Below are positions 1,291 through 61,977 of a stretch of DNA of 64,000 nucleotides, in pieces; positions within the stretch are counted from its first letter, which is position 1, and every line of letters starts with the position of its first letter. The stretch covers positions 1,240,001 through 1,304,000 of the forward strand of contig CALSFV010000002.1 in the NCBI GenBank assembly GCA_943737045.1, in the 5' to 3' direction. Under the pieces are notes generated by a model. That model saw only the letters and a program-made list of their open reading frames with translations. It was not told the origin of the DNA and did no database searches. Source of the DNA: Parapristionchus giblindavisi. Lineage: Eukaryota > Nematoda > Chromadorea > Rhabditida > Diplogasteridae. The position numbers and the translations under genes were made by a program.

Positions 1291-1425
1291 CATGTTGACA
1301 TGGGAAAAAGAAAACAGAAATATAAACGAAATGACGTTGATAAACTTTCACTCCCTTTAACTTTTCCTGCTCTTGTTCCTGCTATGTGTATGTATTTACA
1401 TTTTTTTTTGTTAGGCAAACATAGG

Positions 1426-9628: not shown

Positions 9629-9958
9629 TACTGAAAATGTGATTCACATAACGAGTTTGAATGAGAGCATAACAGATGAAGCGGATAAGGAATCATAGAA
9701 TCGAATAGATTGAATACTACTATAAATTGTTGCTAAGAGATCGGTTTTGTCTAAGCCTTTGAAAATATATTTATCACATGCTCACGCAAAATGTGTGCAA
9801 TAATGCATGGAAGTGCAGCCCTTAAATAGATTGTGTATCAAGTTATTATTATAAATGCATCGATAATGGCTTTCGGGGAACCACAATTTTCAGACCCGCA
9901 AACGAACTGCATATGATACTACTACTTGAGAATGTGAAAAAAAAGTATTAAAGTAGTA

Positions 9959-28217: not shown

Positions 28218-32002
<3,785 letters not shown>

Positions 32003-38221: not shown

Positions 38222-38541
38222 AAGTACTCACGATTGCTTCTATGTTAGTTATATTTTCTTCCATACATACCGTGTCAATACATTGCTTTTCAACAGACAT
38301 TTACGAAGATTTCATTTGCTTCTCTTCAAAGGGCTGACAAATTCAGTTGCCTCAGAAGCTTATGATGTCTCCTTTGCCATGCAAATAGAACACTACTTCA
38401 GAACACCAGTCCAAAAGTATAGTATAAAAGGCCTTTTCCTTCAATTATTTTTTGCGCAACCTTATGGACTGTTCCGGTTTTCTTGACTTTTGTTCTGTAA
38501 TACAGCAAATATATCGTGTACTTCATGACTACTGCTTAGGT

Positions 38542-41500
38542 ATGTCATCTTTCTGGCCAATCTTAATCAGAATCGTAACGACTGTCGAAGGAGGTCTAGG
38601 ATTCATTGTCAATATCATTCTTCTATACACGTTACTGTGGAAACGTTTCGATTCCATCTCTACTTCATATAAGATTGTCTTCATTATATCAGCCGTCCAA
38701 TCCTTTATCTCTTCACTTATCATCATTACAATTCAAAGCGTTAGGATTGATTTATTCAATAATAAGTTTTGCAATTTTAATGCTCTAAATTTAAAAAAAA
38801 GTGATTTGTAATGAACGTCGACCTTGTTACTTATCGTGTTTTGTAATATCCACAGGTCCATGCAATCAGTGAGGGACATGTAATTATTGCATTTTTCTCA
38901 CCAATAATGGTCGACGTCCCCAGAATTATCAGAAATGGAGTGAGATTTTATCTTAAATTGACAGAAAAAAATATTAATTTAATTTAAAACCGCTGTGCCA
39001 AAGTTTCCTGTTACGAAGGGAGCGCAATCTCTCTCAATGGTCTCTTCGGCGCGCAATACTCTCTCGTTGTTAGAGAACAGAGAAATAGTGTGCGCAATGG
39101 CTATTGAGAGAGGTAACATTCGCTTTAAAACTCTACGCTCTGTCAATGGGCAAAATTAGTTTATGGTGTGCATAGATCATTTGGGATAATTGATATAATA
39201 TATTTCAGTGCCTGGCCATAATGAGCGTTTCGATGTGCTTGACCTGGCAAATGGCGCCAGCACCACTCATAGTGCAGTATTTCGCATTGAACAGGCATGG
39301 ATATGCTGTTCTCAAGTTAAGTAGTTGAACTTCATATAGTTTTGATTTGTCAGATCTCAAATTAAACTGCGAAAACGATTCATAATCGCCTACTGCATAC
39401 CTGCTACGTTCGTTCTGCAAGATCTAGTAAGTTTGAGCATATCTGTAGTCCATGTAGCTTGGCAAAGTTCGAAGGGAAGTACGCAGGTTGACTGAAAAGT
39501 TCGCAAGAAAAGTCGGAAGAATGGTGAGAACTTTCCCTCGAACTTTCAACTTACTCTTTCATCGTCAATTGGTCCCATATACTGTTCAGCGAGTTCGGCA
39601 AATCCCAGACGGGTTAGGTGTACAGTATACCCCGGTCGAGTTATGTAAACTGTTCTCTCTAAAATTGGAGGACTAGCTTCCAACTAGCTAGAAAACAGTT
39701 CTGCAAATGCTGAATTTATGCCAAGAAGCGCCCCGCTCTGGCAACATATCAAAAGAGGGACACAGCGAAATCAATTGATATCTTCTTCTTACTAATTAAT
39801 TGAATTATATTAACCTGGTTGCTCAAATCGCATTTTAATGGGATACACTGACAAAAGTGCGAGAGTCAGTATTTTTCCGCGTGCTATATAAATAATAGAT
39901 GAATAATAGGTCATTGCAGTTCTGCATCCGACATTTGTTCCCTTCTCCACGCTACGAGATTGTCCTATACGATATAGTGAGAAGAACCTATGATCTGGAA
40001 GCAGACGAACAATTTTCGATCATGGGCTCTACACCTTTTCCTGATTCAGAAATGGTAATTCATTTTGTTCTTCATTTAGAATTTTTACATTTTTTTAGTG
40101 CGTTACTATTACAGTTAACTGTTTTAAATAAGCGGAACGGAATAACAAAAAAAAATTCTATTTTTTTCAGGACTGTGATGGTATAATTGGTCCCGGAGAA
40201 ATATTTCTCGCCCTTTCGCAAATCATTTGCTGCGTGATATGCAGCATTATTTTTCTCAAGGTTGTGAACTCACAGCAATTATATCAACATTTTTTATAAA
40301 ATGAAAAAAGGGTAAATTTAGATAAAAAATATACCCCTATTTTCTTTTGAGATTCGTTCCGAACTAATTATACTTGGCGTTCAGTTTAGTCAGAAGACGC
40401 TAAAGATGCAGAAAGTCTTCTTCGATCTGCAGAGGATCCAAGTAAGTGTTTTTTCTCTCTTAGAAACATCACAATTTCTTTTATCTTTATGTTTGTTATG
40501 CCTTGATATGCGAGAGTGCACGTGCGAGAGGGATTACTTTATAGGTTTATTAGCAGACTAATAACACTGACTAATACAAGGATAAATAAGGGCACATCCT
40601 GTGCGCGAGGATAAAGAGCAACCATCCAGGACTGATAGGATATCTCTATAGACATGAGTTCGAGGCAAGAGCGAGAGTCATGGTGACGAGAGAGTGGGTA
40701 GATCAGAGAGAGTGTAGTCTGAAATTACATGTAGACAATCGACATGATGCCATACTCTAATCAATAGGTAAAGGGAATAGTTATGATCAATACATATATG
40801 GAATAGGGTAAATATCGTACATGTAAAAATAGTTGTATCATGAATGGTGTGAATCAGGGTTGGGCGGTAAAGGGGGACCGGTAAAAAATTCGGTAACGGT
40901 AATTTACCGGTCTGAAACACCGGTAAAAAATCGGTAACACGGAAAAAACGGTAAATCTCTTAAAACCATTGTAAAATCGCGAAAAAATTGCAAAAAGTTT
41001 TGTGTTTATGTTTATTCGTTCAATCAGAAGTGCGACATCGTGCCTGACTCTATATGCGAATGGCAAAAGGCTAATTTGTTCTTACCTTGAGAGCAGTCAT
41101 AACAAAAAAAATTAATTTCATTTATTGGGTTATTAAATTTGATAAGAGTTATTTATGGTTAGAATAAATATCTGTTGAGTTATAAAATTACATTCGGATC
41201 AGAGATGGTATTAACGATTAACGAATTAACGAAAATCGTTAATTTTAACGATATTTTTCGTTAAATTTTAACGATTAACGAATTAACGAAAATATGTTAA
41301 TTTTCGTTAATTTTTTCGTTAATGAAAATGAGCGTTTGGACGCAGGGGAAGCGTATTTTTCTTACAAATTAGTACCCCTATTCTAGGCAAAATCTATTTT
41401 TTTTTGTCCAAATTCTATTTTTTTCAGTTTTTAAAGTTGTATTCGTTTAAAAACAATTGATATATCGATTTATGGGACATCGCAGTTCATGTTGTTCTAA

Positions 41501-42668
41501 TAAATAAACATGTTTGGAAAAAATTTCATATTTTGAGCATTAACGAAAGTTAACGAAATTAACGAAAATTAACGATTTATTTTTCGTTAATTTAACGACT
41601 TAACGAATTAACGAAAATTTTCATTAACGAACATCTCTGATTCGGATACGGTCAATTTCTCGAGATATTGAACATAATATCACTAAGAAATACTCAGAAT
41701 ATCTAGTGTAAATTTCAGTAATTACCGTTAAGAAACCGTAAAATTTACCGGTCGGTAAATTTTACGGTCAGAGACCGGTAAAACCGGTAAAAAATCGGTA
41801 ACGTAAAATTTTTCCGCCCAACCCTGGTGTGAATGGATCTGAACGGATCAGGCCGATCAAACGGGATTGTGAGCGAGCCGGCCATTTTCGTTATTTTTCT
41901 TTCTTTTCATTTTTTCTTTTCATCGAATCTACTATATTGAAATGTATTAGGCCAAAATATTACAAAAATCATCAACAAAAATCATCATTTTCGCGAGGAA
42001 TAAATTGCTCCAATGAACCAAAATTGACCCATTTATTCAACGTATAATCGGAACAATTTATTCATTTGTAAAGCAATGATTTTTGATAAATGGCAATATT
42101 TTGGCGTGATTTCTTTCAATACAGTAGACAAGAAGGAAAGAAAAACAATGAAAAGAAAGAAAAATAACGAAAATGGCCTTCTCGCCCACAATCCCGTTTG
42201 ATCTGCCTGATCCGTTCAGATCCATTCACACCGTTCATGATACAACTATTTTTACATGTACGATACTCAAGAATCCCTTTATAGAGTATCCTTCCCTTGG
42301 CAATTTCATCCTTCCCACTCGGCTTCTTTTCGTATTCCGTTATCAGTGGAAAAGACGTGGATGCTACATCATGTGCTATATCCTTCTCTCTTTGGCTAGT
42401 TCCAGCCATACAGGTTACAATAATTTAAAGGTTACTACCAGAAAGGTTTGTCCCCGTACCTCGGATGTGGTACCAAAGCAAAATGAAGAACCCTAAAGCT
42501 GTGTCGTCTAAATGAGTTCCTTTCCAATTGATTCGCTGCTTGATAAATGTCATGAAATTGTAAAAAAATGTTATGAAGTTTTCTTTGCAGGGATCGATCA
42601 ACCTTTTCTATGCCTGTAAATTCTCCAAACCTCCATCTGTAGTGATATCTGGATTTGATGTCACCTGA
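38542..42668 (+). CDS. seven-transmembrane chemoreceptor (Srh/Sri-like), receptor F
   Basis: A nine-exon model in phase: 38542-38739, 38856-38939, 39209-39315, 39354-39426, 39920-40054, 40171-40260, 40352-40441, 42285-42413, 42591-42668 (984 nt, 327 aa), the usual length of nematode serpentine receptors. Visible: TM1 GFIVNIILLYTLLWKRFDSI, then FIISAVQSFISSLIIITIQS, PLIVQYFALNRHG, RFIIAYCIPATFV, the extracellular-type LFPSPRYEIVLYDIVRRTYD, ALSQIICCVICSIIFLK, the cytosolic FSQKTLKMQKVFFDLQRIQ signature (S.KT..LQ..FF in Srh-type receptors), and TM6/7 LPLAISSFPLGFFSYSVISG ... SLWLVPAIQ. Exon lengths of 73, 90, 90 and 129 nt are shared with the convergent receptor G, supporting both. Intron 7 (1.84 kb) is filled by three nested transposons. 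Subfamily call is tentative. Confidence 0.82.
39015..39128. mobile_element. MITE-1 copy
   Basis: GAAGGGAGCGCAATCTCTCT to AGAGAGGTAACATTCGCTTTAA with the usual inverted core. It lies in intron 2 of receptor F. Confidence 0.8.
40855..41826. mobile_element. hAT-A element, 8 bp target duplication
   Basis: Ends CAGGGTTGGGCGG and CCGCCCAACCCTG. Exact direct repeat GTGTGAAT at 40847-40854 and 41827-41834. Internal CCGGTAAAAA repeats. The 8 bp duplication and CAGGG end are hAT hallmarks. It carries hAT-B nested inside. Copy 2 of the segmental duplication contains only its right part (to 49209). Confidence 0.92.
41200..41639. mobile_element. hAT-B element, 8 bp target duplication
   Basis: Ends CAGAGATG and CATCTCTG. 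Exact ATTCGGAT repeats at 41192-41199 and 41640-41647. Subterminal TTAACGAAAA-type repeats at both ends. Nested in hAT-A. The duplicate is at 48583-49022. Confidence 0.92.
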
Positions 42669-42942
42669 TTAGACAATCAAGATCCAAATACCTATTGAAA
42701 TAATAATTTTATAATAAAAGATTGTCATGACTATTGTAACTGACGATCATCTGAAGCAATAATAATAATCTAAACACTTGTCACGCGATGTATATCACAG
42801 ATGATTCCAGCCATTGTGAGACGTGAAAAATCAAAGAATAAATGTAGATATCAAATTCTAAAAATATATTGAAAATTCATTTGCTATTTGTTGGCACACT
42901 TGCCTGTTTCCAGGATCTAGTCTCGTGGTCTCAGAGTCTCAT

Positions 42943-43393
42943 ACACTCACAGAAAATTCCCTTAGGGAAGTTTTAGAACTGCATTTCCCTTAGGGAATAA
43001 TTCCCTGATCGGCTGAGAATCCCTTGTATGTAAGGGATTTCTTACCAGGGAATTATTCCCTTAAAAATTCCCTTACATATAAGGGATTTCCAATTTCAAC
43101 CTGCATATGTACGACCGCGTCTGATTAGAGATATCATCACGTTCTACGAGATGGCTTAGTGGCAAGAGTGTTGTGTAGTGATCCGAACCTCGTATGTTCG
43201 GATCCTACCCAGCGTAAATCAACGTTGCCCATTTTTCTTATTGTTTAAATCTATTTCAAATCCCTTAAATGTAAGGCAATAATTCCCTTACATGTAAGGG
43301 AAATAATTCCCTTATATAACTGGGAATAATTCTCTTGGGGTACCTTAGCCAGGGAATTATTCCCTTAAATATAAGGGAAATTTCTGTGAGTGT
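42943..43393. mobile_element. TIR element with AAGGGAA repeats and a tRNA-like core
   Basis: Ends ACACTCACAGAAA and inverse. The flanks are filled with AATTCCCTTA / TAAGGGAATT repeats in both orientations. The core (43145-43215) has a tRNA-like A box (GATGGCTTAGTGGCAAGAG) and B box (TGTTCGGATCC). Duplicate at 50326-50776. Confidence 0.8.
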
Positions 43394-43450
43394 AGTCTGA
43401 CAGAGAAAAAGGTAGAACGAAAAGAGAGAGAGAGTGTGCGCAAGTGATAG

Positions 43451-43657
43451 CTCTGGTATTTTGAAACTTAAAGTCTACTTAAATTACGTCACAGACTTTA
43501 AGTAGACTTTAAGTAAACTTAAAGTGAAAGAACATTTGACGAAATGCATTACAGTATATCACACCACTTTAAGTAGACTTGCGTTTTACTTTAAGTTTAC
43601 TTAAAGTCTACTTAAAGTGCGGAGTTTAAGTAGACTTTAAGTTTCAAAATACCAGAG
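43451..43657. mobile_element. MITE-3, intact
   Basis: Ends CTCTGGTATTTTG and CAAAATACCAGAG, with internal AGTAGACTTTAAGT blocks. Duplicate at 50834-51040. Confidence 0.9.
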
Positions 43658-43702
43658 AGAGAGCAGACGACGATGGAGCACAGCAACAACATGGTGCACC
43701 AT

Positions 43703-44138
43703 CAGAGATGCTCGTTAATGAAAATTTTCGTTAATTCGTTAAGTCGTTAAATTAATGAAAAATAAGTCGTTAATTTTCGTTAATTTCGTTAACTTTCGTT
43801 AATGCTCAAAGTATGAAATTTTTCTCCAAACACGTTTATTTATTAGAACTACATGAACAGTGATGTTTCATAAATCGATATATCAATTGTTTTTATACGA
43901 ATACAGCTTTAAAAACTGGAAAAAAAGAATTTGGACAAAAAAAGATTTTGCCTAAAGGTGAGGTGATAATGTGTAAGAAAAATACGCCTCTCCAGCATCC
44001 AACCGCTCATTTTCATTAACGAAAAAATTGACGAAAATTAATTTATTTTCGTTAATTCGATAATCGTTAAAAATTAACGAAAAATATCGTTAAAATTAAC
44101 GATTTTCGTTAATTCATTAATCGTTAATACCATCTCTG
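43703..44138. mobile_element. hAT-B element, second insertion
   Basis: CAGAGATG and CATCTCTG ends with an exact TGCACCAT duplication at 43695-43702 and 44139-44146. It is in opposite orientation to the copy at 41200-41639. Duplicate at 51086-51521. Confidence 0.92.
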
Positions 44139-44310
44139 TGCACCATGCCGTAACGTAAGAAACATTGCCATTCAACTTGCACTGTTATTCAACCACCTTC
44201 CCTCGACAACCCCCCATGCTGTTTATTCTAACAATTACCCTTCTCATGAAGCGAGAGTTATGATCAGTGTGTGCGATTTATACAAATTGAAATCGCACTT
44301 GTTCCATAAT

Positions 44311-45141
44311 TTATTTCCTTCCTCTAATAACGACAACAGGGGGTGGTCTTCGGACGACCACAGGTCTAAACGCCGGTCTAAAAGCCGGTCGGAACATCGG
44401 TCGAGGTCCTCGGAATGGCGGTCGCACAACAATGACCTGTCGCCTGTCGCGTACAACACTGGGCGAATCGTGTGCAGTCGGAAGTGCTGCAACAGCCGAG
44501 CTGCAAAATCAATAGATAAATCAATTAGTACCACTAGCAGACGTAGAACAAAAGTTTGGATTGGTATGTGCGAGCTCTGGTATTTTGAAACTTAAAGTCT
44601 ACTTAAACTCCGCACTTTAAGTAGACTTTAAGTAAACTTAAGTAAAACGCAAGTCTGCTTAAAGTGGTGTGATATACTGTTATGCATTTCGTCAAATGTT
44701 CTTTCACTTTAAGTTTACTTAGAGTCTACTTAAAGTCTGTGACGTAATTTAAGTAGACTTTAAGTTTCAAAATACCAGAGAGTGTTCGACAAGAACTGCG
44801 TCGTATTTTGGGAATCAGGGTCCTATTGTTGCCCATGGCATGATTATTAACAGTTTAAAAAAATGTATTCTCAACGTAGATCTACCAACAATATACATGC
44901 TATGTGACTGTTCAATATAATATACATAGGCTATTATTTATTTCTGATATAGTTAAGAAAGGGAAGCAACAATGCAGTAATTCATTACCCCCATTCGAAA
45001 GTTATGCAAGAAAACAGGTTGAGTGACATAGAAAGTAGGGGAAACTAGGAACAACTATAAACTAGAAAGTAGGAAAAAGCAGGAAAAAGTAGAAACTCAC
45101 AGAGCGAGAATAGCGACGAATAGGAGGGCAAGAACGTTCAT
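44311..45141 (-). CDS. secreted Pro/Arg-rich peptide precursor (candidate antimicrobial or amidated neuropeptide-like), copy 1
   Basis: Two minus-strand exons, 45141-45101 and 44500-44311, joined by GTGAGT / TTTTGCAG sites in phase 2, give 76 aa. Residues 1-19 form a signal peptide (MNVLALLFVAILALSAVAA). A short acidic-neutral propeptide ends in R-D-R-R (31-34), a dibasic processing site. The predicted mature part starts at Gln35 (able to form pyroglutamate) and has ten Pro, eleven Arg/Lys and no acidic residue, with repeated F-R-P units (positions 43-60). It ends Gly-Arg-Lys, the classic C-terminal amidation signal. This organisation is that of a processed secreted peptide. The composition suggests a Pro/Arg-rich antimicrobial peptide, but a neuropeptide-like role is equally possible. 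ATG is preceded by TATTACAG, a possible trans-splice acceptor, and AATAAA overlaps the stop. The intron carries a MITE-3. No known family is recognised. Confidence 0.75.
44575..44780. mobile_element. MITE-3 in the peptide-gene intron
   Basis: CTCTGGTATTTTG to CAAAATACCAGAG, intact TIRs, inside the 600 bp intron of the secreted-peptide gene. Duplicate at 51958-52163. Confidence 0.9.
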
Positions 45142-45403
45142 ATTCTGTAATACATACCCTTCACCATAATATATATAGTTTTTTAGCACTACGGAATTGG
45201 TCAAATTGTGCTTTGTCGAACTAAGATTCATCATCGATCATCATCATGTTCTCTAAATGTTCCTTAAATTTGGCCACGATCTTTGACCATCTTGATATAA
45301 CAGACGTTGTAATGTACTTATAGTTAGAATGGTGACTCACTCTTTCCAATTACAACATCGAATTGATTGTACTGGGTTATCTTCATTGTTTTGGATAGTA
45401 TGT

Positions 45404-45863
45404 TAGTGTAGAGCTTGGTTATGCCATAGGTAAAACGAAGAGTTGGATCATATTAGTTTATTAGTCAGACGCGTTTCGGGTGTTCAAACCCATCATCAGT
45501 GACATTACCTACAAATAACAAACATTGGAACTAGACAAGAGTGAAAACACGAGAATCAGAGGAAAATGACAAACGGCTGCAAATGATGACTATAGAGTGA
45601 AAAGATGAGTGAGAGAGTGGGTAGATGGGTTATGTTAGAGACAGTGAGAGAAGAGATAATGGGGTGAGGTCATCAGTGAGTTCATAGCGGGCATTTTTGT
45701 CATTTTCCTCTGATTCTCGTGTTTTCACTCTTGTCTAGTTCCAATGTTTGTTATTTGTAGGTAATGTCACTGATGATGTTTGAACACCCGAAACGCGTCT
45801 GACCAATAAACTAATATGATCCAACTCTTCGTTTTACCTATGGCATAACCAAGCTCTACACTA
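45404..45863. mobile_element. foldback element, TAGTGTAGAGC ends
   Basis: Arms of about 180 bp (TAGTGTAGAGCTTGGTTATG and its inverse) enclose about 100 bp. The arms include ACGCGTTTCGGGTGTTCAAA and a CATCATCAGTGACATTACCT block. It lies upstream of the peptide gene. Duplicate at 52787-53246. Confidence 0.85.
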
Positions 45864-46058
45864 ATTACAACATCAATCGTCCCTTCATCGCTCTGTTTTC
45901 ACATAGAGAACGGAGAATTGGAGCACGAATGATTTTCAACAATGGAGGTAAAATATTTTGTTTTATATTTAACGATTTTATCTTGCATTTAAAACCTTTA
46001 TCGGTAATCTTTATCATCAATAATTTCAGTTTACATTTTTTCTCTGTTCCTAACAAAA

Positions 46059-46514
46059 AGGCGATGTTACATTTTTAAAACGGGCACACGTCCACGTGCG
46101 TTTTTCACTTCGTAAAACGGACGTGGACGTCACGTTAGTTCAAAATGCGAGAAAAATGGGAATAACGGGGCAATGGGAATGCTTTGGGGATGCTTGCTTT
46201 GGCGACTTTTCCCAAAAACGTAGTGCGCGGTTTGGTGTATTTTCACAATCTCTTATTGTGAGACGATAGTTCATTAGTCAGAGCGGCGCACCTCAGACAG
46301 GTTTGGAAGCGCGGCGGAGAGTGTGACAGAGAGAATCATTTGATGCAATCTCGCACGCACACCCTCTCATATGCAGCCCACCAAACCCGCCTGGCATCCG
46401 CCTCGCCCTCTTTATAAGTTGGAAAACGTGATTCGCCCTTCCTTCATTGTTGCCCCGCTATTACAGAGGCTGAACTATCGTGACGTGCGCCCGTTTTGAA
46501 TTTGTAACACCGCC
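46059..46514. mobile_element. TIR element, GGCG.TGTTAC ends
   Basis: Left GGCGATGTTACATTTTTAAA and ACGGGCACACGTC; right GACGTGCGCCCGTTTT and GTAACACCGCC. The core is rich in CGC. Duplicate at 53442-53897. Confidence 0.75.
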
Positions 46515-46915
46515 TAAGAATGGTAAAGTAGGCCGGAAGAAGAGTTTAGGCCCTCCGGACTGAATTGGCCTTGAACTATTACTGGCCTAGCAGTGATCAT
46601 CCGCCAGGACTTCGTGCGCCTAGAATATCGGGTTGTGCCTTTACCGTTTTACTTTTTCTTACCTATGCATGTCATCGAACTGCAACACTCGGCTTCATTT
46701 GAACAGTATTTCGAGATGGTGTAGGCGATCCCCCACGACTGCCGCGCACAAAGAATAGCTGAACACCTCCCTGAAGTGATTCCAAGACGTTATGACGGAG
46801 GTTACGGCGTGCGCACGTTTTGAATATGAAACACCGCATAAGGGGAAGAGTTCCGTAATCGTAAAACTTTGCTAGGGAATAATTTCCTCGATAAAGAAAT
46901 TGTCTGTGGGTGTAC

Positions 46916-47044
46916 CTGCACTGAAGGACATATCCAGATCACGAGGGTAAATAGGAGAGTGATGTAGTCGAGGTTGATCTGCGCTAACGATCCAACGACG
47001 AAGATGAGCAAAGGCACACTGATTACAGCCAGCGGTAGGAAACC
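46916..47044 (-). pseudogene. orphan copy of receptor G exon 8
   Basis: 129 nt, identical to 54299-54427 and encoding the TM6-TM7 segment FLPLAVISVPLLIFVVGSLA ... ICPSVQ. No upstream receptor G exons lie on this side, because they are all to the right of copy 2. This is a by-product of the tandem duplication. Confidence 0.8.
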
Positions 47045-47049
47045 CTTAA

Positions 47050-47162
47050 AGGGAGCGTAACCTCTCTCAATGGTCTCGTCGACGCGCAATGCTTTCTCAT
47101 TGTTAAAGAACAGAGAAATAGTGTGCGCAACGAAGAGACCATTGATTGAGGTCACTCTCCCT
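47050..47162. mobile_element. MITE-1 at receptor exon boundary, unit 1
   Basis: TTAA-flanked, AGGGAGCGTAACCTC end to GTCACTCTCCCT end. It abuts the exon at 46916-47044. Duplicate at 54433-54545. Confidence 0.85.
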
Positions 47163-47253
47163 TTAAAATTGTCTCGGACTTTTTGATTGGACTAATTCGA
47201 AAGTCGCCACTCTGACTATTCTATCTCGCTCTGGTAGTATGGTCTGAGACATA

Positions 47254-48441
47254 CTCTGGTATTTTGAAACTTAAAGTCTACTTAAGAGAGATGGCCGTTA
47301 AGACTCGACCACCCCCCGGACACGTGAGCTAGCAATGAGAACTGGGAGTCCATACTTGGGTGTTAGGAGTGCCCCCGGCCCTTATTACACAAAACGGCTG
47401 AAATTTCCTGTTTGCGCCCTCAGGCTATTAGAAAAAAAAATTTAAAAAAAAAAAACTTTAAAAAATCATAATTTTTCTTTTTTTCGAAAATAAACGAATT
47501 TCATATTGATTATGCACATTGCAAAGTACAAAGACAGAGTATTACAGATAGCAAGTTGGAAACTGCTTCAAACACAATTCAGATTTTTCGCACGCATAAA
47601 ACACTAAAAAATTCGAAAAATGGTTGAAAGGAGAGATCGGCCATTGAGCATTGGCTGAATATTATTCACATCATTAGTACTTCACAATAAGCCGCATAAA
47701 TGAAAACATTTCAATCTTGAGAAATTTTGAAATTTTCGGACCATGAAAATCGAAATTTTCATATTGATCCAAGTGATGGGCTTCTTGTGTCATTTTACTG
47801 GTCTCACCTCGAAACTTTGTGTAAAGCACAATTCCGCACCAATCGTTTGGAAAATACAGCATTTGTTCGGGAAAACCATCGATGACGGAAGTTCGAGCGA
47901 AAAATTCGACAAAATGTTCGATCGGGAAGAATCCAGTTTTAAGTTACATCAATGCACAATTGCTTAGGCTACAATACCTGGTCGGAAATTTTGGGCACTC
48001 ACTAAAACAAGGGCTGATTTGTCCGAAAAAACCAAAATTTTGTCTTAAAAAAGTGGTTTAGGAATCAACGGGCATTCGATGCTAATAGTGAATTAGCAAG
48101 CACTGTGCACCCTAGACGCATCGCAAATGGTATTTAGACTTCATCTCAACAATTTGAAAAATTATGATTTTTTAAAGTTAAAAAAAAAATTATTTTTTCT
48201 AATAGCCTGAGGACACAAACAGGAAATTTCAGCCGTTTTGTGTAACAAGGGCCGGGGGCACTCCTAACACCCAAGTATGGACTCCCAGTTCTCATTGCTA
48301 GCTCACGTGTCCGGGGGTGGTCGAATATGATCGAGTCTTAGGGAACAGGCCTCTTAAACTCCGCACTTTAAGTAGACTTTAAGTAAACTTAAACTAAAAC
48401 GCAAGTCTACTTAAAGTGGTGTGGTATACTGTAATGCATTT
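47254..48441. mobile_element. MITE-3 split by a 1.07 kb element; right end lost at duplication junction
   Basis: MITE-3 left part 47254-47285 and continuation 48353-48441. The insert 47286-48352 has imperfect TIRs (both ends share TAAGACTCGA and ACCACCCCC, then CACGTGAGCTAGCAATGAGA and inverse) and a CTTAA duplication at the insertion point. In unit 2 the whole MITE-3 (54637-55913) is complete. Confidence 0.85.
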
Positions 48442-48489
48442 TAACCATAAATAACTCTTATCAAATTTAATAACCCAATAAATGAAATT
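48442..48489. repeat. foldback junction between duplication units
   Basis: 48 bp that is the reverse complement of the first ~48 bp of unit 2 (AACCATAAATAACTCTTATC against GATAAGAGTTATTTATGGTT), separated by only a few bases, forming a palindrome exactly at the junction. Confidence 0.9.
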
Positions 48490-49667
48490 AAAAATTAATT
48501 TCATTTATTGGGTTATTAAATTTGATAAGAGTTATTTATGGTTAGAATAAATATCTGTTGAGTTATAAAATTACATTCGGATCAGAGATGGTATTAACGA
48601 TTAACGAATTAACGAAAATCGTTAATTTTAACGATATTTTTCGTTAAATTTTAACGATTAACGAATTAACGAAAATATGTTAATTTTCGTTAATTTTTTC
48701 GTTAATGAAAATGAGCGTTTGGACGCAGGGGAAGCGTATTTTTCTTACAAATTAGTACCCCTATTCTAGGCAAAATCTATTTTTTTTTGTCCAAATTCTA
48801 TTTTTTTCAGTTTTTAAAGTTGTATTCGTTTAAAAACAATTGATATATCGATTTATGGGACATCGCAGTTCATGTTGTTCTAATAAATAAACATGTTTGG
48901 AAAAAATTTCATATTTTGAGCATTAACGAAAGTTAACGAAATTAACGAAAATTAACGATTTATTTTTCGTTAATTTAACGACTTAACGAATTAACGAAAA
49001 TTTTCATTAACGAACATCTCTGATTCGGATACGGTCAATTTCTCGAGATATTGAACATAATATCACTAAGAAATACTCAGAATATCTAGTGTAAATTTCA
49101 GTAATTACCGTTAAGAAACCGTAAAATTTACCGGTCGGTAAATTTTACGGTCAGAGACCGGTAAAACCGGTAAAAATTCGGTAACGTAAAATTTTTCCGC
49201 CCAACCCTGGTGTGAATGGATCTGAACGGATCAGGCCGATCAAACGGGATTGTGAGCGAGCCGGCCATTTTCGTTATTTTTCTTTCTTTTCATTTTTTCT
49301 TTTCATCGAATCTACTATATTGAAATGTATTAGGCCAAAATATTACAAAAATCATCAACAAAAATCATCATTTTCGCGAGGAATAAATTGCTCCAATGAA
49401 CCAAAATTGACCCATTTATTCAACGTATAATCGGAACAATTTATTCATTTGTAAAGCAATGATTTTTGATAAATGGCAATATTTTGGCGTGATTTCTTTC
49501 AATACAGTAGACAAGAAGGAAAGAAAAACAATGAAAAGAAAGAAAAATAACGAAAATGGCCTTCTCGCCCACAATCCCGTTTGATCTGCCTGATCCGTTC
49601 AGATCCATTCACACCGTTCATGATACAACTATTTTTACATGTACGATACTCAAGAATCCCTTTATAG

Positions 49668-50051
49668 AGTATCCTTCCCTTGGCAATTTCATCCTTCCCA
49701 CTCGGCTTCTTTTCGTATTCCGTTATCAGTGGAAAAGACGTGGATGCTACATCATGTGCTATATCCTTCTCTCTTTGGCTAGTTCCAGCCATACAGGTTA
49801 CAATAATTTAAAGGTTACTACCAGAAAGGTTTGTCCCCGTACCTCGGATGTGGTACCAAAGCAAAATGAAGAACCCTAAAGCTGTGTCGTCTAAATGAGT
49901 TCCTTTCCAATTGATTCGCTGCTTGATAAATGTCATGAAATTGTAAAAAAATGTTATGAAGTTTTCTTTGCAGGGATCGATCAACCTTTTCTATGCCTGT
50001 AAATTCTCCAAACCTCCATCTGTAGTGATATCTGGATTTGATGTCACCTGA
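49668..50051 (+). pseudogene. orphan copies of receptor F exons 8 and 9
   Basis: 49668-49796 and 49974-50051 duplicate the last two exons of receptor F (42285-42413, 42591-42668), with intact splice sites but no upstream exons in this unit. They could be used only by very long alternative splicing from 40441. Confidence 0.8.
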
Positions 50052-51693
50052 TTAGACAATCAAGATCCAAATACCTATTGAAATAATAATTTTATAATAA
50101 AAGATTGTCATGACTATTGTAACTGACGATCATCTGAAGCAATAATAATAATCTAAACACTTGTCACGCGATGTATATCACAGATGATTCCAGCCATTGT
50201 GAGACGTGAAAAATCAAAGAATAAATGTAGATATCAAATTCTAAAAATATATTGAAAATTCATTTGCTATTTGTTGGCACACTTGCCTGTTTCCAGGATC
50301 TAGTCTCGTGGTCTCAGAGTCTCATACACTCACAGAAAATTCCCTTAGGGAAGTTTTAGAACTGCATTTCCCTTAGGGAATAATTCCCTGATCGGCTGAG
50401 AATCCCTTGTATGTAAGGGATTTCTTACCAGGGAATTATTCCCTTAAAAATTCCCTTACATATAAGGGATTTCCAATTTCAACCTGCATATGTACGACCG
50501 CGTCTGATTAGAGATATCATCACGTTCTACGAGATGGCTTAGTGGCAAGAGTGTTGTGTAGTGATCCGAACCTCGTATGTTCGGATCCTACCCAGCGTAA
50601 ATCAACGTTGCCCATTTTTCTTATTGTTTAAATCTATTTCAAATCCCTTAAATGTAAGGCAATAATTCCCTTACATGTAAGGGAAATAATTCCCTTATAT
50701 AACTGGGAATAATTCTCTTGGGGTACCTTAGCCAGGGAATTATTCCCTTAAATATAAGGGAAATTTCTGTGAGTGTAGTCTGACAGAGAAAAAGGTAGAA
50801 CGAAAAGAGAGAGAGAGTGTGCGCAAGTGATAGCTCTGGTATTTTGAAACTTAAAGTCTACTTAAATTACGTCACAGACTTTAAGTAGACTTTAAGTAAA
50901 CTTAAAGTGAAAGAACATTTGACGAAATGCATTACAGTATATCACACCACTTTAAGTAGACTTGCGTTTTACTTTAAGTTTACTTAAAGTCTACTTAAAG
51001 TGCGGAGTTTAAGTAGACTTTAAGTTTCAAAATACCAGAGAGAGAGCAGACGACGATGGAGCACAGCAACAACATGGTGCACCATCAGAGATGCTCGTTA
51101 ATGAAAATTTTCGTTAATTCGTTAAGTCGTTAAATTAATGAAAAATAAGTCGTTAATTTTCGTTAATTTCGTTAACTTTCGTTAATGCTCAAAGTATGAA
51201 ATTTTTCTCCAAACACGTTTATTTATTAGAACTACATGAACAGTGATGTTTCATAAATCGATATATCAATTGTTTTTATACGAATACAGCTTTAAAAACT
51301 GGAAAAAAAGAATTTGGACAAAAAAAGATTTTGCCTAAAGGTGAGGTGATAATGTGTAAGAAAAATACGCCTCTCCAGCATCCAACCGCTCATTTTCATT
51401 AACGAAAAAATTGACGAAAATTAATTTATTTTCGTTAATTCGATAATCGTTAAAAATTAACGAAAAATATCGTTAAAATTAACGATTTTCGTTAATTCAT
51501 TAATCGTTAATACCATCTCTGTGCACCATGCCGTAACGTAAGAAACATTGCCATTCAACTTGCACTGTTATTCAACCACCTTCCCTCGACAACCCCCCAT
51601 GCTGTTTATTCTAACAATTACCCTTCTCATGAAGCGAGAGTTATGATCAGTGTGTGCGATTTATACAAATTGAAATCGCACTTGTTCCATAAT

Positions 51694-52524
51694 TTATTTC
51701 CTTCCTCTAATAACGACAACAGGGGGTGGTCTTCGGACGACCACAGGTCTAAACGCCGGTCTAAAAGCCGGTCGGAACATCGGTCGAGGTCCTCGGAATG
51801 GCGGTCGCACAACAATGACCTGTCGCCTGTCGCGTACAACACTGGGCGAATCGTGTGCAGTCGGAAGTGCTGCAACAGCCGAGCTGCAAAATCAATAGAT
51901 AAATCAATTAGTACCACTAGCAGACGTAGAACAAAAGTTTGGATTGGTATGTGCGAGCTCTGGTATTTTGAAACTTAAAGTCTACTTAAACTCCGCACTT
52001 TAAGTAGACTTTAAGTAAACTTAAGTAAAACGCAAGTCTGCTTAAAGTGGTGTGATATACTGTTATGCATTTCGTCAAATGTTCTTTCACTTTAAGTTTA
52101 CTTAGAGTCTACTTAAAGTCTGTGACGTAATTTAAGTAGACTTTAAGTTTCAAAATACCAGAGAGTGTTCGACAAGAACTGCGTCGTATTTTGGGAATCA
52201 GGGTCCTATTGTTGCCCATGGCATGATTATTAACAGTTTAAAAAAATGTATTCTCAACGTAGATCTACCAACAATATACATGCTATGTGACTGTTCAATA
52301 TAATATACATAGGCTATTATTTATTTCTGATATAGTTAAGAAAGGGAAGCAACAATGCAGTAATTCATTACCCCCATTCGAAAGTTATGCAAGAAAACAG
52401 GTTGAGTGACATAGAAAGTAGGGGAAACTAGGAACAACTATAAACTAGAAAGTAGGAAAAAGCAGGAAAAAGTAGAAACTCACAGAGCGAGAATAGCGAC
52501 GAATAGGAGGGCAAGAACGTTCAT
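51694..52524 (-). CDS. secreted Pro/Arg-rich peptide precursor, copy 2
   Basis: Exons 52524-52484 and 51883-51694, identical to copy 1 (45141-44311) in all bases compared. It therefore encodes the same 76 aa precursor: signal peptide, R-D-R-R processing site, cationic Pro-rich mature region with F-R-P repeats and no acidic residue, and Gly-Arg-Lys C terminus. The intron carries the same MITE-3. It lies downstream of receptor G exon 8 on the same strand, with about 1.8 kb between them. If both copies are real, gene dosage is doubled with no sequence divergence yet. Confidence 0.73.
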
Positions 52525-54298
52525 ATTCTGTAATACATACCCTTCACCATAATATATATAGTTTTTTAGCACTACGGAATTGGTCAAATTGTGCTTTGTC
52601 GAACTAAGATTCATCATCGATCATCATCATGTTCTCTAAATGTTCCTTAAATTTGGCCACGATCTTTGACCATCTTGATATAACAGACGTTGTAATGTAC
52701 TTATAGTTAGAATGGTGACTCACTCTTTCCAATTACAACATCGAATTGATTGTACTGGGTTATCTTCATTGTTTTGGATAGTATGTTAGTGTAGAGCTTG
52801 GTTATGCCATAGGTAAAACGAAGAGTTGGATCATATTAGTTTATTAGTCAGACGCGTTTCGGGTGTTCAAACCCATCATCAGTGACATTACCTACAAATA
52901 ACAAACATTGGAACTAGACAAGAGTGAAAACACGAGAATCAGAGGAAAATGACAAACGGCTGCAAATGATGACTATAGAGTGAAAAGATGAGTGAGAGAG
53001 TGGGTAGATGGGTTATGTTAGAGACAGTGAGAGAAGAGATAATGGGGTGAGGTCATCAGTGAGTTCATAGCGGGCATTTTTGTCATTTTCCTCTGATTCT
53101 CGTGTTTTCACTCTTGTCTAGTTCCAATGTTTGTTATTTGTAGGTAATGTCACTGATGATGTTTGAACACCCGAAACGCGTCTGACCAATAAACTAATAT
53201 GATCCAACTCTTCGTTTTACCTATGGCATAACCAAGCTCTACACTAATTACAACATCAATCGTCCCTTCATCGCTCTGTTTTCACATAGAGAACGGAGAA
53301 TTGGAGCACGAATGATTTTCAACAATGGAGGTAAAATATTTTGTTTTATATTTAACGATTTTATCTTGCATTTAAAACCTTTATCGGTAATCTTTATCAT
53401 CAATAATTTCAGTTTACATTTTTTCTCTGTTCCTAACAAAAAGGCGATGTTACATTTTTAAAACGGGCACACGTCCACGTGCGTTTTTCACTTCGTAAAA
53501 CGGACGTGGACGTCACGTTAGTTCAAAATGCGAGAAAAATGGGAATAACGGGGCAATGGGAATGCTTTGGGGATGCTTGCTTTGGCGACTTTTCCCAAAA
53601 ACGTAGTGCGCGGTTTGGTGTATTTTCACAATCTCTTATTGTGAGACGATAGTTCATTAGTCAGAGCGGCGCACCTCAGACAGGTTTGGAAGCGCGGCGG
53701 AGAGTGTGACAGAGAGAATCATTTGATGCAATCTCGCACGCACACCCTCTCATATGCAGCCCACCAAACCCGCCTGGCATCCGCCTCGCCCTCTTTATAA
53801 GTTGGAAAACGTGATTCGCCCTTCCTTCATTGTTGCCCCGCTATTACAGAGGCTGAACTATCGTGACGTGCGCCCGTTTTGAATTTGTAACACCGCCTAA
53901 GAATGGTAAAGTAGGCCGGAAGAAGAGTTTAGGCCCTCCGGACTGAATTGGCCTTGAACTATTACTGGCCTAGCAGTGATCATCCGCCAGGACTTCGTGC
54001 GCCTAGAATATCGGGTTGTGCCTTTACCGTTTTACTTTTTCTTACCTATGCATGTCATCGAACTGCAACACTCGGCTTCATTTGAACAGTATTTCGAGAT
54101 GGTGTAGGCGATCCCCCACGACTGCCGCGCACAAAGAATAGCTGAACACCTCCCTGAAGTGATTCCAAGACGTTATGACGGAGGTTACGGCGTGCGCACG
54201 TTTTGAATATGAAACACCGCATAAGGGGAAGAGTTCCGTAATCGTAAAACTTTGCTAGGGAATAATTTCCTCGATAAAGAAATTGTCTGTGGGTGTAC

Positions 54299-57200
54299 CT
54301 GCACTGAAGGACATATCCAGATCACGAGGGTAAATAGGAGAGTGATGTAGTCGAGGTTGATCTGCGCTAACGATCCAACGACGAAGATGAGCAAAGGCAC
54401 ACTGATTACAGCCAGCGGTAGGAAACCCTTAAAGGGAGCGTAACCTCTCTCAATGGTCTCGTCGACGCGCAATGCTTTCTCATTGTTAAAGAACAGAGAA
54501 ATAGTGTGCGCAACGAAGAGACCATTGATTGAGGTCACTCTCCCTTTAAAATTGTCTCGGACTTTTTGATTGGACTAATTCGAAAGTCGCCACTCTGACT
54601 ATTCTATCTCGCTCTGGTAGTATGGTCTGAGACATACTCTGGTATTTTGAAACTTAAAGTCTACTTAAGAGAGATGGCCGTTAAGACTCGACCACCCCCC
54701 GGACACGTGAGCTAGCAATGAGAACTGGGAGTCCATACTTGGGTGTTAGGAGTGCCCCCGGCCCTTATTACACAAAACGGCTGAAATTTCCTGTTTGCGC
54801 CCTCAGGCTATTAGAAAAAAAAATTTAAAAAAAAAAACTTTAAAAAATCATAATTTTTCTTTTTTTCGAAAATAAACGAATTTCATATTGATTATGCACA
54901 TTGCAAAGTACAAAGACAGAGTATTACAGATAGCAAGTTGGAAACTGCTTCAAACACAATTCAGATTTTTCGCACGCATAAAACACTAAAAAATTCGAAA
55001 AATGGTTGAAAGGAGAGATCGGCCATTGAGCATTGGCTGAATATTATTCACATCATTAGTACTTCACAATAAGCCGCATAAATGAAAACATTTCAATCTT
55101 GAGAAATTTTGAAATTTTCGGACCATGAAAATCGAAATTTTCATATTGATCCAAGTGATGGGCTTCTTGTGTCATTTTACTGGTCTCACCTCGAAACTTT
55201 GTGTAAAGCACAATTCCGCACCAATCGTTTGGAAAATACAGCATTTGTTCGGGAAAACCATCGATGACGGAAGTTCGAGCGAAAAATTCGACAAAATGTT
55301 CGATCGGGAAGAATCCAGTTTTAAGTTACATCAATGCACAATTGCTTAGGCTACAATACCTGGTCGGAAATTTTGGGCACTCACTAAAACAAGGGCTGAT
55401 TTGTCCGAAAAAACCAAAATTTTGTCTTAAAAAAGTGGTTTAGGAATCAACGGGCATTCGATGCTAATAGTGAATTAGCAAGCACTGTGCACCCTAGACG
55501 CATCGCAAATGGTATTTAGACTTCATCTCAACAATTTGAAAAATTATGATTTTTTAAAGTTAAAAAAAAATTATTTTTTCTAATAGCCTGAGGACACAAA
55601 CAGGAAATTTCAGCCGTTTTGTGTAACAAGGGCCGGGGGCACTCCTAACACCCAAGTATGGACTCCCAGTTCTCATTGCTAGCTCACGTGTCCGGGGGTG
55701 GTCGAATATGATCGAGTCTTAGGGAACAGGCCTCTTAAACTCCGCACTTTAAGTAGACTTTAAGTAAACTTAAACTAAAACGCAAGTCTACTTAAAGTGG
55801 TGTGGTATACTGTAATGCATTTCGTCAAATGTTCTTTCACTTTAAGTTTACTTAAAGTCTACTTAAAGTCTGTGACGTAATTTAAATAGACTTTAAGTTT
55901 CAAAATACCAGAGTAGGAAACTTACTTGTAGCAATTCCATTTGCAGCAGTCTCTTCTGTAGTTTGATGGTTTTCCCACTGTATGCGATACCGTAAGAACG
56001 AATATGTAACCTAACCTTGAACAAAAACTAACCATATATTCGAATATAGAACGACTCGAACCTGCCAAGTTATGAGGGCGAATAAAATATAGGAAGAAAC
56101 GTAGGTAACAATAACAAGACCAATCACTATTCGAAGCATGTCCCTACCTCCCTGCAAAATTATATCGGCTTTTTTGTTTTATTTTATTTTCAGTTTTCTC
56201 ATATTATGCACATACACATGAATCTCTATTTCTTTCTTACCGGGGGTTAGGATGAAACGTAGGTGACAAGAAGTAAGTCCCCCTCCCTCTAAGTAATCTT
56301 TGTACTCTGGTATTTTGAAACTTAAAGTCTACTTAAACTCCACACTTTAAGTAGACTTTAAGTAAACTTAAAGTAAAACGCAAGTCTACTTAAAGTGGTG
56401 TGATATACTGTAATGCATTTCGTCAAATGTTCTTTCACTTTACTTAAAGTCTACTTAAAGTCTGTGACGTAATTTAAGTAGACTTAAAGTTTCAAAATAC
56501 CAGAGTAAGTAATCTTTGTATAACCCTTACTATATTTGTGATAAACTTGCTTTGGTTACTACTCTTAGCATGAATAAAGGTATATATCAAGAACTTTTAT
56601 CATTTACGTTTTTCTCGACGTGCGACAGCGTGGCCCCGTAAGCGGTGGCTGGTTCCATATCTGTCAGGTAGAGACTATGCACAATGCCCTCCATCACAAC
56701 ATTGAACTCCGGAGTGGGAAAGAAGTCTGGGGATATGACCTGCAAAATATGTATTGTTAAATTAATTACATTAAAAAATAAAATTAAAAAATAAAATTAT
56801 TTATAAAAAAGGTTCACCAAAACTAAAATAATACAGCTGACCGTGAACGCGAACGCGATAGATAGACGTTTGCCATTAGATAATTGGGGCCTGAAAGTAG
56901 CTTCTCTTATTCTTAAAGGGAGCGTAACCTCACTCAATGGTCTCTTCGACGTGCAATGCTCTCTCGTTGTTAGAGAACAGAGAAATAGTGTGCGCAATGA
57001 AGAGGCCATTGAGTGAGGTAGCGCTCCCTTTAAAGGATCACCCCAAGCTAATTTTACTCTCCGCATTGGCAATACTCTCTCGCAGACAAAGAAAGTGAGA
57101 GAGTGTGGCCAGAGCGGAGAGTTTCAAATTAGCTTGGGGTGTCCCTTTAAAGGATCACCCGTGCAATTTCGAAACTGTACGACCTGAAAAGTTATCTCGA

Positions 57201-59042: not shown

Positions 59043-60214
59043 CTTGTCAATGATAAATCACTTTAATAAGTTATTAAAGTAAAAATGAAAATAATTGATG
59101 TATACGTGTTAAAGATACCTATAAGTTAAAAATATGAATTAGGGATGTTTTGATGAACCAAAAGTATTGTAAAATAAAATAACGTCTGACATACCAGACA
59201 TGTTCGGCATGAGTGTATTCTTAGAGGCAGTTTCTATAGAAGGAAATAGAGCGATAGAGCAAGCTAGAGAAGTATAGAGAAATGAGCGAAGTTCAATGCA
59301 TCACATAATCTCCTCTCACAAGATTAGGGGAATTTAAGAAGCAGTGTGATCCCGTTGAGTTCAAATGAAGTCGTTTTATCATCCGGAATTAGAAATTGTA
59401 ATAAATGAAAGAAGATTGTATTAAGTGTATGTTTTCCCACAGCATCATTGTAGAATTCACGTTTTAAATCAGTATTCACAGTGTTATTTAGTCGTCGATG
59501 TCTCGACCCTTGGTCTTGAATATATTTATTTATTTTATTTATTTATTTGATACACCCGTGACAGGTGCGACAGCAAATACAAAAACGATGAGAAAAATAA
59601 TTATAATAATATAAAGGACTTGGGGAAGGTGGCAGGGGTCATTTGACGATAGCTATCATATTTCCGGAGCTCCAGTAGGAGTGAGGTGGACGAGGCCTCA
59701 GAACGGGAAGGGGACCGTTCAGATCCATGTGACTATATGGATCATAATGGAAACATTGGGATATATATGTACTCAAGGGTATCAGCAGCTTAGGCACATA
59801 TACTCTTCCTCCACTTGTCCATCCTCTCGCACTAGCGATATATTCAGTCATTCATTATCAATATTATCACTGGCCCAATTCCCTTGCATCGTCTAATAGA
59901 TGGACCACTGCGTCCTGGGAGAGTGTTCGGAAAGTTTGTGCACTTTTTCACAATTTATATTTTTTTAGTATGAAACGAAGCAGCTACATTCAAATGGTGA
60001 GGTGATCACATTCAAGAAATGCATAGTAGTTGTGCAGTCATTATAATCCCGCGAGATCGCCGTTTCACTAAGCGGACTTGTTCCCAGCGGAGAGTTGCTC
60101 TGTCAATTCATTGGCAGTTTTCTTTACAGAAAATATAAAACGGCAGTTCGATTAATATTGTTGATTCAGTGGATGCTGATAAAAGTTATTGTATTACATA
60201 TATTTTTATATTAA
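59043..60214. other. intergenic, no gene recognised
   Basis: Contains TTTA-rich sequence near 59520-59550 and short unsupported frames. Nothing with splice and motif support was found. Confidence 0.5.
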
Positions 60215-61977
60215 GACACCGGCTCAGTAAGATTCGAGGGTTTTGCCAGTGACCCCGGACATCGACCTCACCGATTTGGCCCAAATTTTTTAATGGATAC
60301 CCCCATGGGCCCCCATCACAAAATGGGTATTCATTTGGGCTTGTTCCTTGAAACACAGATGTGGCGGGTTTTTTCGAATTTTGAAAACTCGATTTTCACC
60401 GGAAAAAAATGGAGCGACCTAGGACCAATGTTAGTGTCGATTAATTATAAGAATAAATAGGCAACAAAAACTGGCAACAAATACGACGGTCCGGAGATCC
60501 GATCGCAAACTGATTTTTTACATCTTCAAAACATTCTAAAATTAATTAAAATTTTAAAACAAAAAAGTGCAGCCCAATTGTTGCCTCATCTTATAGAGCA
60601 AAAAATTCCGCGTCGAATAAGGGAAAAAATCAAAAATCGAAGGACCCGTCTTTTGAGATAAATGGACCTGAAGTTGACCCGAAAATATTTTTGCTTTCAA
60701 ACCCCCACATGTTTGTGCTCTTATTGAAGAGCTCGTCGAGTAGAACAACTTTCATGTTGAACGCTTTGTCTGAAACTCATGTACAAGAGAGTTTCACACG
60801 TTTTCCAGCTAATTTTGAGTAAAACGAAAATAAAATATTTTCAAAATAAAAAAGTGCAGTCCAATTTTTACCTCATCTTATAGAGCGAAGAATTCCGCGT
60901 CGAAAAAGAGAAAAAAATCAAAAATCGAAGGACCCGTCTTTTGAGATAAATGGACCTGAAGTTGACCCGAAAATATTTTTGTTTTCAAACCCCCTTGTGT
61001 TTGTACTCATATTGAAGAGCTCCTCGAGTAGAACAACTTTCATGAGCATTTTGTTTGAAACGCATGCACAAGAGAAATACATGCGTTTACTTAATTCACA
61101 CGATTTTTCAGACAAGTTTGAGTAAAACAATAGTAAAATATTTTTGTGCACAAAATGCTTTCGCCTATATTGTAGAACTCAAAAATCCATGCCTTGTTTG
61201 TTGTTTCACGAAAAAAAAAATTTAGTCCCCATGCTGAAAATAATTACTCGAAAATGGTAAAAAAGTTGTCGGATCCTTGCCATGTTTATACTCATTTTAA
61301 AGTACTCGTCGAGTACGTCATTTCTCATGTTGGTCGTATTCTATGAAAGTCGTTTGTTCTCAAGATACAAGCGATCGAAATGATTTGGATCCAATAAATC
61401 TTAATTCATGTATTTCTCTTGTACATGAGTTTCAGACAAAACGTTCAACATGAAAGTTGTTCTACTCGACGAGCTCTTCAATATGAGTACAAACATGAGG
61501 GGGTTTGAAAGCAAAAATATTTTCGGGTCAACTTCAGGTCCATTTATCTCAAAAGACGGGTCCTTCGATTTTTGATTTTTTTCCCTTATTCGACGCGGAA
61601 TTTTTTGTTCTATAAAATGAGGTAAAAATTGGACTGCACTTTTTTGTTTTAAAATTTTAATTAATTTTAGAATGTTTTGAAGATGTAAAAAAATCAGTTT
61701 GCGATCGGATCTCCGGAAGGTCGTATAGCTAGTTTTTGTTGTCTATTTATACTTATAATTAATCGACACTAACATTGGTCCTAGGTCGCTCCATTTTTCT
61801 TCGGTGAAAATCGAGTTTTCAAAATTCGAAAACCCGCCACATCTGTGTTTCAAGGAACCCGCCCAAATGAATTCCCATTTTGTGATGGGGGCCCATGGAG
61901 GTATCCATAAAAAATTTTTGGGCCAAATCGGTGAGGTCGATGTCCGGCACTTCCTGGAATCTCACTGAGCCGATGTC
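60215..61977. mobile_element. long foldback element, TTAA flanks (FB-TTAA), complete copy
   Basis: TTAA at 60211-60214 and 61978-61981. Ends GACACCGGCTCAGTAAGATTC and GAATCTCACTGAGCCGATGTC. Long arms inverted to each other; the left arm additionally has a tandem repeat of the GACCCGTCTTTTGAGATAAA block (60645 and 60930). The right TTAA is also the left TTAA of a MITE-1. Confidence 0.88.

Follow-up and report, generated by a model that had tools for sequence, protein, structure and literature searches.

Does a minus-strand frame at positions 44311-45141 of a 64-kb stretch of the Parapristionchus giblindavisi genome (the window), split by an intron and overlapped by a longer antisense ORF, belong to a real gene, and what might its product do? 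Splicing and translating the minus strand bore out the two exons, the splice sites and the 76-residue frame that a sequence-only reading had proposed. Exons 45141-45101 and 44500-44311 join into a 231-nt frame of 76 aa plus stop, which reads MNVLALLFVAILALSAVAALPTAHDSPSVVRDRR, then QVIVVRPPFRGPRPMFRPAFRPAFRPVVVRRPPPVVVIR, then GRK (Table 1). The composition given earlier for the 42-residue tail, with 10 Pro, 11 basic residues (10 Arg and 1 Lys) and no acidic ones, was confirmed, as was the overlapping antisense ORF (plus strand, 44260-44595, 111 aa). Rfam and tRNA scans of the 64-kb window returned no match. Four features had escaped the sequence-only reading, namely the identical second copy, the two paralogues, the MITE-like insertion in the intron and the shared upstream block.

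Table 1 Features of the 44311-45141 gene, its relatives and its surroundings (window positions unless a contig is named)
Feature	Position	Strand	Remarks
Upstream block	45193-45287	minus	~95 bp; conserved among three distinct genes
Core box AGATCRTGGYCANATTTA	45265-45282	minus	Within upstream block
TATA-like TATATATA	45170-45177	minus	~30 nt before ATG
Exon 1, coding part	45101-45141	minus	41 nt; start codon and most of signal peptide, MNVLALLFVAILA plus 2 bases of next codon
Intron	44501-45100	minus	600 nt; GT-AG, GTGAGT...TTTTGCAG
MITE-like element in intron	44575-44780	.	206 bp; terminal inverted repeats CTCTGGTATTTTGAAACTTAAAGTC...
Exon 2	44311-44500	minus	Signal-peptide end, pro-region, mature peptide, Gly-Arg-Lys, stop; intact in paralogues, dN/dS <1
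Putative signal peptide, exon-2 part	44485-44500	minus	To residue 19; hydropathy
Pro-region	44440-44484	minus	15 residues, LPTAHDSPSVVRDRR; ends in R-X-[KR]-R convertase motif
Predicted mature peptide	44323-44439	minus	39 residues, QVIVVRPPFRGPRPMFRPAFRPAFRPVVVRRPPPVVVIR
Gly-Arg-Lys, C-terminal amidation signal	44314-44322	minus	GRK also in L003, GKK in L004
AATAAA, candidate polyadenylation signal	44222-44227	minus	84 nt past stop
Second copy, identical	51694-52524	minus	Exons 52484-52524 and 51694-51883; 7,383 bp away
Paralogue L003	C2:1215623-1215805	plus	92% identity over exon 2 (protein search)
Paralogue L004, diverged	C31		61% identity (protein search)
Duplication, left arm	41107-48441	.	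7.3 kb, tandem
Duplication, right arm	48490-55822	.	7.3 kb, tandem

Gene family and codon constraint

A protein search of the genome (251 Mb in 703 contigs, with the window at C2:1240001-1304000) identified four family loci, comprising the 44311-45141 gene, its identical copy and the paralogues L003 and L004. The L004 exon, used as a reciprocal query with E allowed to 10, returned the same four loci, and a codon pattern for RQV[VIAM]VVRP matched at these loci only (reversed-pattern control, 0), although protein and motif searches would miss members whose tails have diverged further. The 41-nt coding first exon and the intron phase are common to all distinct genes. Intron lengths are 600 nt in the 44311-45141 gene, 342 nt in L003 and 183 nt in L004, the first being longer in part because of the MITE-like insertion. 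Both diverged paralogues preserve the exon structure and the frame, so the frame is more than a chance one, and on sequence grounds the locus is a real gene.

Relatives were also sought beyond the genome. With the 44311-45141 protein as query, a database of 5.8 billion proteins, which may hold few nematodes, yielded 59 candidates and no match at E up to 10; with the alignment of the three proteins, five of 5,608 candidates were matched at E 0.72 to 4.5, none significantly. All five contain Cys as well as a stretch resembling VVVRRPPPVVVVRP; we discounted them as matches of composition. A PDB search gave one meaningless match at E 6.8, and NCBIfam gave none. The Pfam family PF10917 (Fungus-induced protein) scored 17.6 bits with the 44311-45141 gene and 16.9 bits with L003 against a cut-off of 24; the similarity was confined to the signal peptide (residues 1-22 or 1-23), with L004 and the mature part unmatched, and membership was rejected on both counts. 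Sub-threshold PF10917 similarity was also seen in a cluster of four small frames at C203:1403832-1416753 (L014-L017, with L015 and L017 on the minus strand). L014 and L016 were rejected as members of the present family, as they read as Lys-rich secreted frames.

Codon substitution was measured by the Nei-Gojobori method on the three pairs of distinct genes, of which the two L004 pairs share branches and hence are not independent. Between the 44311-45141 gene and L003, 16 synonymous and 8 nonsynonymous changes gave a dN/dS of 0.168 (one-sided Fisher p 4e-5). When the 24 changes were placed neutrally, 8 or fewer were nonsynonymous in 2 of 20,000 simulations (mean 16.9, stop-making runs kept in). 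Whole-frame dN/dS was 0.227 for the 44311-45141 gene versus L004 and 0.232 for L003 versus L004. For gene-L003, gene-L004 and L003-L004, respectively, the ratio was 0.064, 0.160 and 0.158 in the mature part and 0.36, 0.33 and 0.35 in the pre-pro part, where the synonymous excess reached significance for both comparisons with L004 (p 0.012 and 0.011) but not for gene-L003 (p 0.08). In all three pairs, these values point to purifying selection on the sense frame, which is most marked in the mature part and milder in the pre-pro part. The lack of such selection in related species had been named beforehand as a reason to abandon the frame; here the selection is found among paralogues within the genome.

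The longer antisense ORF that overlaps the gene invites the reading that the sense frame is a chance splice of open stretches and that the antisense ORF is the real gene. The codon patterns speak otherwise. While the sense frame is constrained in each pair, dN/dS for the 44260-44595 antisense frame is 1.06, 0.62 and 0.87 for the three pairs, without significance in any (p 0.63, 0.10 and 0.42), and L004 has a stop within that frame; the splice phase and the upstream block are conserved as well. Another antisense frame, stop-free in all three genes, shows dN/dS values of 0.48, 0.34 and 0.40 (p 0.07, 8e-5 and 6e-4), a constraint weaker than that of the sense frame in every pair, which can be read as a by-product of sense constraint. 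A chance frame or an antisense gene was rejected on the substitution patterns and the L004 stop, and we regard it as extremely improbable.

Flanking sequences and the tandem duplication

The block upstream of the ATG has stayed conserved, even though L004 differs from each of the other two genes by a dS above 1.2. A genome DNA search with the upstream stretch of the 44311-45141 gene recovered its two copies and L003 and missed L004, and the same search with the L004 stretch recovered L004 and L003 (73%, E 7e-7). Direct blastn of the 44311-45141 and L004 upstream stretches gave 72% over 99 bp (E 7e-10). Across the 251 Mb, the core box has four occurrences, one at each family locus (reversed control, 0); since the pattern was written from the family genes, its presence there is by construction and the finding is its absence elsewhere. 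TATA-like sequences also precede the ATG of L003 and L004 by eye. In L003 and L004, the 360 nt that follow the stop contain no AATAAA.

An earlier suggestion of a spliced-leader acceptor was weakened, as neither L003 nor L004 retains the 'ttacag' that precedes the ATG of the 44311-45141 gene; a conventional short leader is therefore as likely as trans-splicing. The 22-nt SL1 leader has 351 exact occurrences in the genome (reversed control, 0), which marks the genome as that of a nematode. Among the matches listed, those at C145:26449-82876 form a tandem array of exact leaders, mostly ~1.17 kb apart.

The gene and its identical copy lie in tandem arms that are 99.96% identical (one mismatch and two single-base gaps). 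Where the arms meet, the 50 bp at 48442-48491 repeat 48495-48544 exactly in inverted orientation, an arrangement that would suit a template-switch duplication. The arms may be a recent duplication or an assembly artefact. Apart from the copies in the duplicate, the MITE-like element recurs at 43451-43657, 30648-30848, 56305-56505 and, in part, 55734-55913. Some copies are flanked by 2-bp repeats, AG or TA. Elsewhere in the window, 1249-2424 (+) is a retrotransposon reverse-transcriptase frame (Pfam RVT_1, E 2e-17), and 38428-38811 (+) is a strongly hydrophobic frame that by eye looks like a piece of a membrane receptor and has no Pfam match. A dispersed repeat, several hundred bases long, lies at 9957-11801 and 60209-61956 as four or more copies, direct or inverted, with 93-95% identity between the longest pairs and 86-91% between shorter ones.

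Precursor layout and predicted processing

The signal-peptide-like start and the convertase and amidation motifs that the sequence-only reading had claimed are supported as sequence motifs. Hydropathy and small residues near positions 18-19 of the precursor fit a signal peptide, for which cleavage near Ala18/Ala19 is expected from the small-residue rule. The convertase motif is RDRR in the 44311-45141 gene and RDKR and RVKR in the paralogues, its class kept while the letters vary, and each of the three distinct genes encodes Gln, a potential pyroglutamate, as the first predicted mature residue. All four loci keep R-X-[KR]-R, the N-terminal Gln and the Gly-dibasic end. Such features fit cleavage by a furin/kex enzyme, conversion of the Gln to pyroglutamate and amidation of the C-terminus. 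In the proposed sequence of events, the signal peptide would be removed, a furin/kex-type convertase would then cut after R-X-[KR]-R, the newly exposed N-terminal Gln would cyclise, and the C-terminal dibasic pair would be trimmed and the Gly converted to an amide.

Domains of candidate processing enzymes are present in the genome. PF03712, a domain shared by amidating enzymes and related copper monooxygenases, has five matches above cut-off, some with internal stops, which reads as translation across introns; PF01483, the P domain of kexin-type convertases, has four. These matches offer weak support for the processing enzymes, because PF03712 also belongs to related hydroxylases and PF01483 also matches 1 of 14 control genomes.

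The predicted mature peptides of the 44311-45141 gene, L003 and L004 have 39, 38 and 45 residues, respectively, with 26%, 26% and 29% Pro, 23%, 21% and 18% Arg, 3%, 3% and 9% Gly, and net charges of +9, +8 and +8 (the first, about +9, counted before the amide). They contain no Cys and no acidic residues, and hydrophobic residues (V, I, L, M, F, W, A) make up 42-47%, compared to 11-26% in nine comparison sequences of proline-rich antimicrobial peptides (PrAMPs). FRPx/RPPx repeats lie between Val-rich ends, and after the predicted amidation the C-termini would read VVVIR-NH2 or VIVVR-NH2. Both mature ends align gap-free among the three distinct genes, and the middle is diverged.

This layout of signal peptide, dibasic cleavage and Gly-basic amidation, seen as motifs in the three distinct genes, is also that of neuropeptide precursors. 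The product could accordingly be pictured as a neuropeptide or peptide hormone, with the amidated C-terminus and the pyroglutamate N-terminus protecting a GPCR ligand, and the conservation of the convertase site, the Gln and the amidation signal in all three genes, together with ends that align gap-free around a middle that does not, would suit such a role. Each precursor, however, holds a single long peptide of 38-45 residues instead of repeated short amidated units, the peptide is strongly positive with Pro/Arg repeats, the gene was recently duplicated and no Pfam neuropeptide family was matched. We consider a neuropeptide or hormone unlikely. 'Neuropeptide-like', one of the two labels first proposed, appears to fit less well than antimicrobial, given one long peptide, no repeated copies and a diverged middle.

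Comparison with antimicrobial peptides and predicted function

Four criteria for PrAMPs by Welch et al., as quoted in PMC11678341, are at least 25% Pro, a net charge of at least +1, antimicrobial activity, and DnaK and/or the 70S ribosome as target. All three predicted mature peptides reach the Pro and charge thresholds. The sources of PrAMPs given in PMC11678341 are annelids, crustaceans, insects, molluscs and some mammals, and its main text contains none of the terms 'nematod', 'Caenorhabditis' and 'worm'. No nematode PrAMP was found in the available text of the AMP literature searched, including PMC6017362 and PMC8318700. The 44311-45141 peptide is absent from the twenty synthesised peptides (Table 7) and the Table 8 fragments of PMC10414684, whose supplementary lists, for example of 479 linear peptides, may hold it.

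Local alignments were scored against 1,000 shuffles of each of nine comparison sequences. For ChBac5, shuffles reached the observed score 0, 7 and 6 times in 1,000 for the three distinct genes, with the caveat that shuffling also destroys the ChBac5 periodicity; for the eight other PrAMP sequences, 10 to 900 shuffles did so. The ChBac5 sequence in PMC7604311 has RPPx repeats and a Gly-Arg-Arg amidation signal. Ruminant Bac5/ChBac5 and the nematode peptides are alike in being cationic, Pro/Arg-rich, Cys-free and ~40 residues long, with RPPx/FRPx repeats and a Gly-dibasic amidation signal. They differ in that Bac5 has 47% Pro against 26-29% in the nematode peptides, whose ends are Val-rich, and in that Bac5 carries a cathelin pro-domain of ~100 residues where the nematode precursor has a 15-residue pro-region. 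No Pfam match to the cathelin pro-domain was obtained up to E 1 and E 10, and the precursor does not group with the cathelicidins. Because both sequences are repetitive, a shared repeat design, not descent, is indicated, and the resemblance is probably convergence.

The earlier comparison with bactenecins therefore stands for the Bac5-like RPPx/FRPx repeats (with Bac5 as the bactenecin compared). The alignments lend no specific support to a ribosome blocker of the apidaecin type, those with apidaecin, drosocin and oncocin being no better than shuffles. The insect PrAMPs (apidaecin, abaecin, drosocin, oncocin, pyrrhocoricin and riptocin) share high Pro, Arg (except abaecin), positive charge and a role as secreted defence peptides, but most are half as long and all far less hydrophobic, and 111 to 900 of 1,000 shuffles reached their scores. 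No class I or class II PrAMP core was recognised by eye in the nematode peptides. A PRP motif occurs once in the 44311-45141 gene, once in L004 and not in L003, the rest of the class I core being unrecognisable by eye; the C-terminus differs by eye from the class II apidaecin-like region, and the apidaecin score was reached by 187, 450 and 111 of 1,000 shuffles. Among crustacean peptides, the N-terminal PPPIGRPPLRLV of penaeidin-1 resembles PPIGRPPVIVV of L004, with RP/RPP motifs common to both (10 of 1,000 shuffles for L004, 63 and 58 for the other two), and arasin 1 also has RP/RPP motifs (83, 185 and 59 of 1,000). Both arasin 1 and penaeidin carry a Cys-rich domain, unlike the nematode peptides. 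Annelid lumbricins are described in PMC6780910 as proline-rich AMPs of worms; they are likened here by description, not by sequence, and are annelid, not nematode.

PMC10506718 describes five nematode AMP groups (cecropin, CS-alpha-beta, nemapore, diapausin and glycine-rich secreted peptides), none defined there as proline-rich. Like these, the present precursors are small and secreted by prediction, and the glycine-rich (nlp/cnc) group is also linear. Membership in nlp/cnc, for which PMC10506718 gives mature Gly >17%, was rejected at 3%, 3% and 9% Gly in peptides that are Pro-rich instead, and CS-alpha-beta, nemapore and diapausin were rejected for want of Cys in the mature peptides. The 76-aa protein gave no local alignment with cecropin P1, the one cecropin compared, at E up to 100, and cecropin P1 as a query found no match in the genome, a search that is itself uninformative. 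By these comparisons, the peptide fits none of the five groups.

Low-complexity Pro-rich sequence raises a further reading, in which the product is a secreted structural, matrix or polyanion-binding peptide of cuticle, eggshell, mucus or gut lining and its Pro/Arg/Val repeats form an extended binding segment. The L004 protein has a weak Extensin_1 match in this direction, at 18.5 bits far under the cut-off of 105. The peptides are very short for this purpose, their mature part offers no Tyr or Cys for cross-linking, and a clean R-X-[KR]-R cut with an amidation signal is unusual for structural proteins. We judge a structural role distinctly unlikely.

The 44311-45141 product is most likely a PrAMP, and an antimicrobial effector is the best-fitting predicted function. 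Our favoured explanation, in which we have moderate confidence, is that the locus is a working nematode gene of two exons, whose secreted prepropeptide would be processed to an amidated PrAMP-like immune or gut/cuticle effector. Consistent with this are the frame and splice sites, the four-locus family, purifying selection, kept processing motifs, PrAMP composition, Bac5-like repeats and the family-private upstream box. Recent exact duplication is usual for effector genes. From these features we infer transcription, secretion, processing and antimicrobial action. The end product would be a linear peptide of ~39 residues with FRPx/RPPx repeats and Val-rich ends, which would bind anionic microbial surfaces, cross or disturb the membrane and engage intracellular polyanionic targets. 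Against a PrAMP stand the 42-47% hydrophobic residues, unlike classical non-lytic PrAMPs, with which the peptide may act on membranes; the missing PRP motif of L003; the strongly conserved ends, which could mean a receptor ligand; and the lack of any relative outside the P. giblindavisi genome in the 5.8-billion database, with its possibly few nematodes.

How such an effector would act divides the PrAMP-like explanation further. As a sub-case, the product could be a membrane-permeabilising nematode AMP, myticalin-like with Val-rich amphipathic ends, instead of one with an intracellular target. Its high hydrophobic content would agree with section 4 of PMC11678341, in which longer, more hydrophobic forms of Bac7 permeabilise more and myticalins are without the ribosome-binding consensus. 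Sequence alone cannot tell this from the intracellular mode, and we hold it as a tentative possibility, on balance rather unlikely. That nematodes evolved their own amidated Bac5-like PrAMPs acting inside bacteria, on the ribosome or DnaK, as a family under a private conserved promoter element, seems to us improbable in that full form.

If true, a nematode PrAMP-like family would be a sixth nematode AMP group beside the five described in PMC10506718, and would represent convergence with ruminant bactenecins. Very short, in two exons, of low complexity and overlapped by an antisense ORF, the gene is of a type that homology screens can pass over. The family would supply three natural, testable amidated peptides of 38-45 residues.
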